Source: Panorpa germanica (Eukaryota; Arthropoda; Insecta; Mecoptera; Panorpidae). Taken from it: a stretch of 64,000 nt of DNA. Each line of letters opens with the position of its first letter. Within the stretch, counting starts at the first letter, position 1. Made by a program: the position numbers and the translations under genes. The notes below the pieces were generated by a model. It did no database searches and was not told where the DNA came from. It saw nothing but the letters and a program-made list of their open reading frames with translations. Positions 11,015-64,000 of this stretch are shown one piece after another. The stretch spans positions 8,132,152 to 8,196,151 of the forward strand of contig OY783218.1 of NCBI GenBank assembly GCA_963678705.1. The letters are read 5' to 3'.

Positions 11015-11290
11015 ATAAGATTTTATAATTCTATTTTACAAATTTGTAAATATTTAAATAATTCACTAATTAATTTTGAATCACTTAACAACAATTTAGT
11101 ATTAACAAGAAAAGTTTTAATCACATCTAATATTTCACTATTGAATTTTGATCTTTGTAAACTATAATTTATGCATTCAAATATAATATGATCCAAAGTT
11201 CCTTCTTCACCACATTGACATCTATCGTCAGATTTAATATTAATTTTGTACAGGTGAGCTGGAGTTTTACAATGATTATTATTTAATAAT
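11015..11290 (-). pseudogene. LINE polymerase C-terminal fragment
   Basis: Minus-strand frame with CQCGEEGTLDHIIFEC, a variant of the C-x-C...H-x4-C motif at the end of I/R1-like LINE ORF2, followed by about 45 residues to a TAA stop. The upstream part (KTPAHLYKINIKSDDR) is also in frame. The fragment lacks the reverse transcriptase. Confidence 0.65.
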
Positions 11291-11384
11291 GAATTGTGTT
11301 AAAATATTAAATAAGAAATTTCATAATTGTCGAAACTACAACATTTTAAATTGAAATCACAAGTACGTCAACATTTTTTTTTTA

Positions 11385-30761: not shown

Positions 30762-30871
30762 GTAAGAAGAATACTGATAAAACTCTCCTTTTAAATATCT
30801 TGAGATGATAAATGATTACAAAATATATAAGCTAAATTTTTAAATACATCTTTTTCTGTCTTCCTCCAAAG

Positions 30872-31064
30872 GTTCGTTGGCTGAGTCCCCGTGGAGAACC
30901 AATACCACAAGATGTCGGCCGTGTTCATGTGGAATCCCGAGATGCCATCGCTCCAGGAGCTCAAGCGATTGTCTTTGAACAAATTGATGTACATGACAAA
31001 GGAAACTGGACTTGTTCAACAGAAGATAAGAAAATAAGAAAAAGTTTTAAATTGATCGTCTATG
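30872..31064 (+). CDS. Immunoglobulin-like domain, exon encoding the C-terminal half
   Basis: Acceptor CTTCCTCCAAAG, donor GTAAGT; 193 nt, starting in phase 0 and ending in phase 1. It encodes VRWLSPRGEPIP (the core tryptophan nine residues after the first cysteine), then a strand ending IDVHDKGNWTC (the D-x-G-x-W/Y-x-C signature with the second disulfide cysteine) and KSFKLIVY as the final strand. The two cysteines are separated by 54 residues, normal for an I-set/C2 domain. The 1-0-1 phases make the pair a self-contained symmetrical module. The exon downstream is not recognisable within the window. Confidence 0.87.
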
Positions 31065-31454
31065 GTAAGTAATTCTGAAACTTTTACTAATATACGTCGA
31101 TGCATATTACCTTACTTTAATATCTATTTTTAATCAAGGAAAAAACGGTTTCCAAATGACATGAACGTAACTAAAAACAGAAACGATCAAATCAAGCATT
31201 GTTTTTACTATTCGTGGTAGACCAGATGGAATTTAGTTTTATTCCAAAAATTGTAGTGTAACTAAATTTGCATTAGTAGTTTTGCGCACCGGAAATACCA
31301 CACAGGCGCTGGTGTCTTAAATCATTCGAGGAAAAGTTGCGGGCAAACAGTTCTTTTACACGTGCATTTTTGTACTAATATTTGAACAAGCTTTTAGAAG
31401 AGAATCAAAAATTAACTGGACAATACTCATTTATATAATGAAATAAATTTATGT

Positions 31455-53092: not shown

Positions 53093-54529
53093 TCAAAATT
53101 CTTCTTTTCGCAAAATATTAAGGTCATCATAATTTTCTTCGGTTTTGGCTTTTCCTACATTGATATAAGGTTTGAACAATGCAGAGAGACAATCTGCAGC
53201 TGCAGCTGCTTTGTCACAGGGGTCTCCAGATACACGGCTGTTGTTACATACGCTAAATATCTTCAATTTTTCTGAGGTTGGCATTGGAATATAAACCGTC
53301 TTCTCAACGATTTCTATCAGCCTGTCTACATTGAAGTCACCCGCCTCGTTAACCAACCCAAAGTGCAGCATTGAGCACTTAAGGTAACACCGGAACTCAC
53401 GGCTGTCATCGTGCTCAAACGTAGTGGTGTATCGACGAACATCCGCTTCAGCCACGTTGTTCTGCGCGATACAATAGTGATCATTGAAGTCATCCCCAAT
53501 GACATCCTGAAATAAAAGGAGTAGTGTAAAAGTAAACGTAAATATTACATAAAAATAATAGTGAAAATTTTATGGAAATAATTCTATTTATCAAAATATA
53601 ATCTTTCTTGTACTGCAATGTTATGTTTAGCAAAGTTATCTAAGTTGTCTTTGTTGTTAGTGTATGAGTTATTAAACGTATAATCAAGTAGTCTTTCAGT
53701 TTCCTTTTTGAAGTGTTTGTGAATAAAATTTCCAATATATTTTTGATATCACTAGCTAGCATCTACTGCTATTACATATGGACTCAATCAGACTCAATAC
53801 TAACTCTAGTTATTCGCGTATGTTCCTTAAATAAATTGTTATTCGTTCTTGTTTTGTTTTCGTGTAATTCTGAATTAACCCTTAATTCTGCATAAAATAT
53901 TCCTTAAGTAGAGAACAAGTTCATAAATATAAATACCATAAACAGAAAACATCTTTGATATTATTTATCTAACGTTTTTCGACAATCATATTCAACAACA
54001 ATTAAGAAACGATTGAGTTATTAACAAAACACTAAAATATAAATATATGTTAACGAAAAGAAATAATTAAATCTAAGGTGCAGAAGTTACAACGTCTTGA
54101 AGAATGTATTTAAAAGATTTTATTGAAAAAACTAACACGATAAAGAAGAATGTGAATGAAAGCACGAACATTCGAACGAACGTCGTGTAATCTTGTAGAA
54201 TTGTGTTAATTTTTTATCTAAAACTACAAGAAAAAACAACTTTTTAATAAATATTTTCAAGGATTAAAGAATGACTCACGTAGAGGTAGTAGTACACAAT
54301 TTTTACATTTATATTACGTAACAAACTGTTGCCACGCCCAGTCGGTCATGTTTCCTGCTTTCCATAACATCAATGGATTTATGAATCAAAGTAGAGCGTA
54401 GTTCAATTAAAGGCAATTGTATATAAATATTATAAAAATATATAAATTTAAATAAATACATATATATATATTACTTACTGCAAATTGTGTAACACACGCG
54501 ACAAGGATCACTATCAACAGGTTGTTCAT
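53093..54529 (-). CDS. Odorant-binding protein, classic six-cysteine type (OBP1)
   Basis: Two exons: 54479-54529 (17 codons, hydrophobic signal peptide MNNLLIVILVACVTQFA) and 53093-53506 (137 codons plus TGA), joined in phase 0 across a 972-bp intron (donor GTAAGT, acceptor TTTATTTCAG). Precursor 154 aa. In the mature part cysteines fall at 12, 40, 44, 87, 97 and 106, i.e. C-x27-C-x3-C-x42-C-x9-C-x8-C, the diagnostic PBP/GOBP spacing with three expected disulfides. Insect OBPs are small alpha-helical proteins secreted into sensillum lymph or other fluids, carrying hydrophobic ligands; the ligand cannot be read here. The C-terminus is a charged tail (EENYDDLNILRKEEF). First ATG chosen because it opens the signal peptide. 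Neighbours are two minus-strand paralogues. Confidence 0.93.
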
Positions 54530-57157: not shown

Positions 57158-57744
57158 CGAGGCGTGTTTTTTAAGTGAGTACCGTTTTGGAATTAAAAAA
57201 AGACGTGCAAAGATATCGCAATAATTTTATTTTTACATGAAAGCCTTTACCTTAATCTACTTTTCTACATAATTTCCGTGAATATTGAGGCACTTGTCAT
57301 AACGTGGCACCAGTTTTTGAATACCCTCCTCATAAAATTCTGCCGCCTGACTTGTTAACCACTGTATCACAACTGTTTTGACTTTTTTCATCATGCACAT
57401 TTGTGCGGCCATCTTTAAATGCTCTCACCCATTTCCTTACCATTCCATCACTCATAATGTTTTGTCCGTAAACTTCACAGATCTCACGATGAATATCGAT
57501 CGGTTTTACGCCTTTAGCACTAAGAAATCGTATAACAGCCCGTACTTCACAATCGGCGGGACTCACGATTGTCTGAGGCATCTTAAACACTCAGTAAACA
57601 ACGTATACAATGAAGAATAAGACTGTAATGGCTGTAGAAAAGTAGATTAAGGTACAGGCTTTCATGTAAAAATAAAATTATTGCGATATCTTTGCACGTC
57701 TTTTTTTAATTCCAAAACGGTACTTACTTAAAAAACACGCTTCG
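57158..57744 (-). mobile_element. Internally deleted mariner element
   Basis: 587 bp with inverted ends of about 110 bp: CGAGGCGTGTTTTTTAAGTG at the left and, reversed, CGAAGCGTGTTTTTTAAGTA at the right. The right side is followed by TA (target); the left TA appears mutated to TT. It contains the shortened transposase frame at 57260-57581. Confidence 0.88.
57260..57581 (-). pseudogene. Mariner (irritans-type) transposase, central part deleted
   Basis: From the ATG at 57581 the frame gives about 72 residues of the N-terminal DNA-binding region: a first helix-turn-helix (CEVRAVIRFLSAKGVKPIDI), then MSDGMVRKWVRAFKDGRTNV, the second helix-turn-helix typical of mariner. It then jumps across a deletion to a stop at 57330. 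In another frame just downstream the family C-terminus is readable (AAEFYEEGIQKLVPRYDKCL, then IHGNYVEK and a stop). The whole catalytic DD34D core is missing, so it cannot transpose by itself; the long ends stay recognisable to a full-length transposase. Confidence 0.85.
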
Positions 57745-61487: not shown

Positions 61488-62821
61488 TTATAAATCGCCC
61501 TTTTGCCATTTTGATTTTTCTTCGAGTTTGGGTTTATACATCATATTGATAACAGGTTTGAACAATGCAAACAGACAGTCTGCAACTCCAGCAGCTTTGT
61601 CACTAGGGTCTCCAGGCATGTGACTGTTGTTACATACGCTGAGGACCTTCACTTGCTCTGAGGTTGGCATTGAAATGTAAACTGTCTCCTCAATCATTTC
61701 TATCAGCCTGTCTACATTGAAGTCACCCGCCTCGTTAACCAACCCCATGTGCAGAAACGAGCACAAAATGTAACACGGCAACTCACGACTGCCATCGTGC
61801 TCAAACGTAGTGGTGTATCGAAGAACATCCGCCTCAGTGATGTTGCATTGACCACTACAATACTGGTCATTGAAGTCAATTGCATTGACTTCCTGAAATA
61901 AAAATAGAAGTATAACGTAAACATAAATATTACATAAAATAATAGTGAAAATTTTATGAAAAAAACTCTATTTAATAAAATATAATCTTGAAAGTTTATA
62001 ATACAATGCTATTTAAATAGCATCCTTGATAAAATGATGATTTGAATAAATATCATAAATAGCGAACATCTTTGAAATAGTTCATCTATCGTATTCAACA
62101 ACAATTAAGAAATGATTGAGTTATTACCAAAAAACTTAAATAGAAGAATATGATAACGAACGAAATCAATTAATTTAAGGTGCAGAAAATTAAAATGTCT
62201 TGGAGACTAAATTTAAAAGATTTTATTAAAAAAACTATCTCAATAATCACGTCACGCAACTTTGTAGAATTCCGTTGAAATTTTAGTCTAAAACTTCAAG
62301 AAAAAACAATTTTTGCATAAATATTTTTATAAAAATGATCACTTTGTTAACCATTGAAACTTTCTAGAATCTTTCGAATATATTTGTTGTTACAATTGCG
62401 TTTCTAAACCTCAAAAACACCTTGAAGTCACCTTGAAAGCTAGTGACGTAATTGATTTTTGTGTAAAGCTACGTAAACGAACATAATTATCAAATTTTCA
62501 AAATAGAAAGCTCGATAATGATTTAAGAATGTCAACTGCAGTTAGAAAGACTCACTAGAATGTGGAATAACGAATAACTACTTAGAATGCACTTTACTTA
62601 AATTACATAACACTGTTGCTAGCCGCACCCAGTCGGGATAGACATCCTTGGTGCTACCAATAATGTCAATGCATCTATGAATTCAAGTAGACTCTACTTT
62701 AATTATAGGTATATGTAATATGTATAAATGTTATAAGAATATATGCATATATTGTATAAGTACTTACTCCGATTGTTAAAATGCCTGTAGCAAGGAACAC
62801 TGCCACGACGAACTTCTTCAT
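61488..62821 (-). CDS. Odorant-binding protein with altered cysteine pattern (OBP2)
   Basis: Two exons: 62768-62821 (18-codon signal peptide MKKFVVAVFLATGILTIG, donor GTAAGT) and 61488-61892 (134 codons plus TAA, acceptor TATTTCAG), phase 0, intron 875 bp. Precursor 152 aa, co-linear with OBP1; the block NEAGDFNVDRLIE is identical. The fifth canonical cysteine is serine (GDPSDKAAGVADC against GDPCDKAAAAADC). A new cysteine sits four residues after C1 (YCSGQCNIT), so six cysteines remain but at 12, 16, 40, 44, 87 and 106 of the mature chain. C2, normally bonded to C5, has lost its partner. The new cysteine also precedes an NIT glycosylation sequon. The C-terminal tail differs from OBP1. The frame is intact, so it is probably a functional gene. 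Confidence 0.91.
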
Positions 62822-63125: not shown

Positions 63126-63449
63126 CCATCCAAAGAAAGCATAAATTACATCCCGCTAAATTATTGTATCTATTTATTATACTCGTATTACAGTAAAAAT
63201 GACAGAATTTTTCTTCATTACACAAATTTAATTCAATTACACTATGAGACATGTTTCATGACGTCATCCTTTTCAAATTAGAGAAATAGAAATGCAAATA
63301 CAATTGGTGTATCTCATATTTCCAGAGATGCTGGATTCAGAAATAGCCATTTTTGCGCACACCTGTGCGACCTATTCATTTCATTTAAATAGTGAGACTA
63401 TTCGATTATAATAACTATAAATATTTCATTTCTAGATTACAGCTGATAA

Positions 63450-63542
63450 TTATAATTCCTCTTTTTGACATACTAGGTCATCATAATTTTCTTCGGGTTT
63501 GGGTTTACCTATATTAAGAACAGGTTTGAACAATGCAAAGAG
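63450..63542 (-). pseudogene. Third OBP copy, C-terminal coding remnant (OBP3)
   Basis: The minus strand encodes LFALFKPVLNIGKPKPEENY then DDLVCQKEEL and a stop, matching the C-terminus of OBP1 more closely than that of OBP2. Homology breaks exactly at 63542. The expected preceding coding sequence, about 320 nt with all six cysteine positions, is missing and replaced by the unrelated segment 63543-63793. Confidence 0.85.
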
Positions 63543-63793
63543 TTTAACCAGATAATCATATCCAACTTACAAAAAATATTTAAATTAATTTAAATTTCTC
63601 GCCTTTGGCTGTCTACAAGACGTTCTACACAATATATTCAATCGAATGGAGAATGTTAGTTTGGATCGTATTCATAAATGTTGTTTACAATTGTAAACGA
63701 ATCTTACTTCATTCGTTTCGATCGAATCTGTTCGATCGTGAACATTGCTCGCAAAATTCAGGAATAGGGCCTCTGATCATTCCCATGGACACA
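63543..63793. other. Replacement segment inside OBP3
   Basis: 251 bp with no similarity to OBP exon sequence; contains short palindromic words such as CGTTTCGATCGAATC and GTTCGATCGTGAAC. The plus-strand open frame here (63605-63802) is not recognisable. Confidence 0.6.
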
Positions 63794-64000
63794 GTGAAAT
63801 AAAAATGAAAGTATAACGTAAACGTAAATATTACATAAAATAATAGTGAAAATTTTATGGAAAAAATTCTGTTTATCGAAATTTATAGTTTTAAAAGTTA
63901 ACAAAAATAATAATTTTTCTTGTACCCCATGGGACTAACACATGAAACTACATGTAATATTTAACAAAGTTCCCTAAGTTGTCTTTATTGTTAGTGTATG
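63794..64000 (-). pseudogene. OBP3 intron, runs off the window
   Basis: GAAATAAAAATGAAAGTATA onward follows the 3' half of the OBP2 and OBP1 introns (ATTACATAAAATAATAGTGA, AAAATTTTATGGAAA), and the last bases match the OBP1 intron text GTCTTTGTTGTTAGTGTATG. The acceptor is destroyed: TTTCAG of the paralogues has become TTTCAC. The signal-peptide exon, if kept, lies beyond 64000. Confidence 0.8.

Follow-up and report, generated by a model that had tools for sequence, protein, structure and literature searches.

Loss of the fifth conserved cysteine and gain of a cysteine close to the first in a tandemly duplicated OBP gene of Panorpa germanica

Classic insect odorant-binding proteins (OBPs) carry three disulfides, C1-C3, C2-C5 and C4-C6. 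The same pairing is described for 2ERB, and AmelOBP14 is given as an OBP with two disulfides whose structure has been solved (PMC5034290). Cysteine loss in the family has been put at a minimum of 22 independent events, comprising one loss of three cysteines, 13 of two (eight of these being C2/C5) and eight of a single cysteine (PMC3428353), and two of the eight single losses are of C5 alone, one event accounting for seven Nasonia second domains and the other for ApisOBP11 (Table 2 of PMC3428353). The original prediction for the gene described here, that known minus-C OBPs lose C2 and C5 as a pair, does not hold in view of these single losses. The same source proposes that once one cysteine is lost the constraint on its partner is relaxed. 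Minus-C OBPs are usually defined by the absence of both C2 and C5 (PMC2722677), and in the fire ant the C-minus pair was lost independently in SiOBP2 and SiOBP8 (PMC3031547). For silkworm OBP genes, the same source places the first intron, of phase 0, close to where the signal peptide is cleaved (PMC2722677); some of these genes have no other intron.

We analysed an OBP gene, OBP2, located near one end of the window, which is the whole stretch of 64,000 nucleotides studied. Its two-exon model gives a product of 152 amino acids with no internal stop, in line with the intact frame of the original prediction, and the product of exon 1 is hydrophobic and leader-like as judged by eye. The protein matches the Pfam family PF01395 (PBP_GOBP) with 46.3 bits, passing the curated cut-off of 22, and the intron plan, a lone phase 0 intron after the leader, is like that reported for silkworm OBP genes. 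Searching the window with the OBP2 protein by tblastn gave a single full paralogue, OBP1 (53.1-53.5 kb), together with a fragment at 63.5 kb; the match to OBP1 is 64.3% identical over an aligned stretch that takes in some intron frame. OBP1 is a tandem paralogue of OBP2, 8 kb apart from it. Both genes have few residues before C1 (61859-61892 in OBP2 and 53473-53506 in OBP1), which would give a short first helix common to the array.

Table 1. Features of the OBP array in the window. Codon positions of OBP2 are on the minus strand, with counting begun at the start of exon 2.
Feature	Position	Strand	Description
OBP1 exon 2	53093..53506	-	with stop codon; all six cysteines; PF01395 58 bits
OBP1 exon 1	54479..54529	-	MNNLLIVILVACVTQFA
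OBP2 exon 2	61488..61892	-	entire mature OBP domain and TAA stop
C6 Cys124	61577-61575	-	TGT
Ser115 at C5 position	61604-61602	-	AGT in OBP2; TGT (Cys) in OBP1
C4 Cys105	61634-61632	-	TGT
C3 Cys62	61763-61761	-	TGC
C2 Cys58	61775-61773	-	TGT in OBP1 and OBP2; usual partner C5 absent in OBP2
New Cys34 at C1+4	61847-61845	-	TGC in OBP2; AAC (Asn) in OBP1
C1 Cys30	61859-61857	-	TGT
OBP2 intron	61893..62767	-	GT...AG; donor GTAAGT, acceptor TTTCAG
OBP2 exon 1	62768..62821	-	leader exon MKKFVVAVFLATGILTIG; phase 0 end; translation and GTAAGT donor
OBP3 remnant, tail part	63438..63542	-	C-terminal tail from just past C6 and start of 3' flank
OBP3 remnant, intron part	63777..63899	-	intron 3' end and first exon 2 bases; acceptor CAC, not CAG

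The cysteine register of OBP2 (spacing 3/23/3/42/18) is fixed by OBP1 (27/3/42/9/8), because OBP1 retains all six cysteines. Five of the six canonical cysteines of OBP2 are in register with those of OBP1, and the pattern first proposed, a change of C5 to Ser (TGT to AGT) with a Cys four residues after C1 and with C2, C3, C4 and C6 kept, agrees with this register; both the loss and the gain are confirmed in the OBP2 sequence. The AAC and TGC codons at C1+4 are two base changes apart, via Ser or Tyr, and the 111 ungapped codons of the core show 30 residue differences and 55 nucleotide differences between the two genes. Two alternative registers were rejected. Cys34 is not the true C1, as OBP1 has the first of the two cysteines only, at a distance of 27 from C2 that lies within the 25-68 given for silkworm OBPs (PMC2722677), nor is C5 mis-registered, as Ser115 preserves the X8 spacing to C6 and lines up with the DPCDK motif of OBP1. 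With Ser at C5, OBP2 is not a classic OBP with six cysteines at C1-C6, and with C2 present as TGT it falls outside the strict minus-C class of PMC2722677; it does fall within the looser class of fewer than six canonical cysteines used in PMC3428353, having five, and with a total of six it is not a plus-C OBP, which would have more.

The fragment on the upstream side of OBP2, which adjoins it, is here called OBP3. Its exon body has been swapped for about 235 nt of other sequence, whereas its 3' flank still matches the OBP2 flank at 85.1% identity over 281 nt, as does its intron, at the 3' end, at 86.7% over 105 nt; exon 1, if any, would lie past the window end. Apart from its own locus, the filler (63541-63810) matches nothing in the window over more than 37 nt. 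OBP3 (63438-63899) is, judged from these alignments, a local pseudogene, and it is without the part covering the Cys34 and Ser115 sites, from which the age of the two changes relative to the OBP2-OBP3 split could have been read. The array within the window thus consists of one six-cysteine gene (OBP1), one altered gene (OBP2) and one ruined copy (OBP3). Between OBP1 and OBP2 lies an N-terminal fragment of a mariner-type transposase (57333-57590; HTH_48, 36.8 bits). Elsewhere in the window, an open frame at 30836-31069 weakly resembles the immunoglobulin I-set domain (17.6 bits, short of the 23.7 cut-off) and may belong to a cell-adhesion gene as one of its exons, another at 11026-11298 weakly matches a reverse transcriptase zinc-binding region (18.6 bits, short of the 27.5 cut-off), and a 391-bp unit is present as a tandem pair, 97% alike and with a TA microsatellite within, at 1768-2511. 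A tRNA scan found none.

The reading that we favour, with about even confidence, is that OBP2 is a working or recently working, tandem-duplicated OBP that has lost C5, would retain two disulfides and stands half-way to the minus-C kind, Cys34 being a separate substitution. The frequency of such changes by chance was assessed by simulation, in which the OBP1 coding core was evolved with selection against stops only, under an A+T-rich mutation model that was assumed and not fitted. A single branch received 12, 18, 24 or 30 nonsynonymous changes, in 4000 runs each. Exactly one cysteine gain together with exactly one canonical loss was found in 9.4, 12.6, 14.6 and 13.6% of the runs, respectively. 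At least one new cysteine appeared in 27, 38, 48 and 54%, a gain at most four residues from a canonical cysteine in 15, 21, 27 and 32%, and at least one canonical cysteine was lost in 49, 64, 74 and 82%. Since one gain with one loss is not improbable without selection (9-15%), the total of six is by itself no evidence of compensation, and Cys34 need not be a compensation for the lost C5.

A different arrangement, in which Cys34 replaces C5 and bonds to C2 (Cys58), so that helices 1 and 3 would be stapled twice and the link between helix 3 and helix 6 would be gone, is possible but doubtful. It would account for the retention of both C2 and the total of six cysteines, although the gain of a cysteine is within chance. 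An AlphaFold2 model built from the two window sequences is poor (pLDDT 59.1, pTM 0.44). For the 132-residue construct, which places C1 at residue 10, the new Cys at 14, C2 at 38, C3 at 42, the Ser at 95 and C6 at 104, six helices are predicted at this low pLDDT (2-14, 18-27, 36-46, 58-68, 75-87 and 94-129). In this low-confidence model Cys34 is the final residue of predicted helix 1, one turn past C1, and C2 sits one turn ahead of C3 in predicted helix 3. The layout is similar to that of the homology model of the beetle minus-C protein BhorOBPm2, with helix 1 at 11-26 and C1 at 22, and helix 3 at 45-57 and C3 at 53 (PMC5034290). Antiparallel packing of helices 1 and 3 at the C1-C3 bond would be expected to stack the Cys34-C2 pair alongside that bond, and provided that the helices do run antiparallel there, it is possible that Cys34 reaches C2. 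The original prediction looked to a structural model on this point, and at a pLDDT of 59.1 the layout permits the contact but does not show it. Word-match searches of the literature, extending into few papers, yielded neither a precedent for such a rewiring nor a report of a cysteine gained at C1+4. We consider it unlikely that the third disulfide of OBP2 has been re-routed from C2-C5 to Cys34-C2, leaving helix 6 and the C-terminal tail held by C4-C6 alone and perhaps able to open more freely. Were this the case, the re-routed bond would be a natural disulfide swap in the fold of a ligand carrier, for which OBP1, with its six cysteines and only 8 kb off, could serve as a control; otherwise OBP2 is another cysteine loss among the fast-evolving OBPs, with one partner of C2/C5 still present.

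It is also conceivable that constraint on OBP2 has been relaxed and that the cysteine changes are the early decay of a gene heading to a pseudogene, like the adjoining OBP3 that is already destroyed, and we judge this to be quite improbable. In a single MAFFT alignment of the OBP1 and OBP2 units, from which the identity and gap figures of this paragraph are taken, the noncoding parts are 69.7% (5' flank), 76.5% (intron, 637 aligned nt with 16 gap events) and 70.0% (3' flank) identical, and exon 1 is 58.8% identical over 51 nt. Over its first 333 nt exon 2 reaches 82.3% identity, compared with 69.7-76.5% for the flanks and intron, a difference that constraint on OBP1 alone could explain in part. 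Gap events in the noncoding parts number 40 over 1388 aligned columns, and the lengths of 33 are not divisible by three, whereas exon 2 has two gaps (3 nt and 12 nt), both of which rework the C-terminal tail, as decay might, and neither of which breaks the frame. With gap rates from the partly diverged flanks and intron of this one alignment, and with half of the total assigned to a single neutral branch, exon 2 should have gathered about 4.8 frame-breaking gaps, against the 0 observed (P about 0.008). The kept frame argues against a long neutral drift of OBP2, as far as this alignment goes. The absence of stops is a weak sign of constraint: 32, 17 and 11% of neutral runs were stop-free over 111 codons at K of 0.10, 0.15 and 0.20 (2000 runs each), and the 17% at K 0.15 suits decay as well.

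By the Nei-Gojobori method dS between OBP1 and OBP2 is 0.318 and dN 0.153, with a dN/dS of 0.48 (bootstrap 0.26-0.93; below 1 in 98.6% of 5000 replicates), a value that is not low and that, being a pairwise mean, could equally come from a constrained OBP1 and a drifting OBP2. The original prediction called for a dN/dS estimate, and this pairwise value lies below 1 but does not assign the constraint to OBP2 rather than OBP1. An identical run of 50 nt is shared by OBP2 (61696-61745) and OBP1 (53310-53359) over core codons 45-61; of 10,000 codon shuffles, 0.61% gave a run as long. It could be a gene conversion tract or reflect local constraint. That either codon, or both, reflects a base-call error or a rare allele is very improbable, for although there is a single sequence and the change of C5 to Ser takes one base, AAC and TGC are two bases apart in one codon and 55 differences lie in the 333 nt around.

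Taken together, the half-way minus-C reading is favoured because five of the six canonical cysteines are kept, where 49-82% of the unconstrained runs lose at least one, because exon 2 has no frame-breaking gap (P 0.008) and dN/dS is 0.48, because loss of C5 alone and a two-disulfide OBP, AmelOBP14, have precedent in the sources cited above, and because a gain paired with a loss turns up in 9-15% of the runs free of selection. If OBP2 is expressed and secreted, the C1-C3 and C4-C6 disulfides would be kept and C2-C5 would be absent, and the protein would probably behave as a looser two-disulfide OBP, with whatever binding role it may have, of the minus-C kind caught halfway with C2 still there. 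Cys34 would have arisen by a separate substitution, so that C2 and Cys34 would be two extra thiols, which may be paired, dimerising or free. Indeed, relaxed constraint, a free thiol and a new disulfide, the options named at the outset, were the right set to weigh. Of course, several findings count against the half-way reading. C2 is TGT in both copies, although a solitary C2 without constraint would have been free to change, and the cysteine total is still six; moreover, pairwise dN/dS cannot separate OBP2 from OBP1, and the 5' flank, which can be aligned to its OBP1 counterpart at 69.7% identity, is no better kept than the other noncoding sequence.

The best solved relatives of OBP2 by sequence are 8c68 (AGAP010489-PA, mosquito) and 3q8i, with LUSH and honeybee ASP5 next or near. 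An alignment-based search for orthologues gave 54 pattern matches in a set of genome contigs and 12 in a set of viral contigs, neither set being made up of insect genomes, and no relative was among them. OBP2 has about 7-11 residues between the likely end of the leader, placed by eye, and C1, compared with 16 in the LUSH and 18 in the ASP5 chains. It is like the classic six-cysteine OBPs in its PF01395 domain, in the C2-X3-C3 spacing and in the register of C1, C2, C3, C4 and C6, and unlike them in the Ser at C5 and the extra Cys at C1+4. A C2-C5 disulfide is impossible in OBP2, as in minus-C OBPs of the honeybee OBP14 kind, but unlike these, as they are described, it has C2 and a new Cys. With C5 alone gone it resembles ApisOBP11 and the second domains of the Nasonia double-domain OBPs, as tabulated in PMC3428353, although unlike the latter it is a single-domain gene. 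Since single losses of C5 have precedents, the loss in OBP2 is of a known kind, and OBP2 is a modest variant of the cysteine-loss pattern known in the OBP family.
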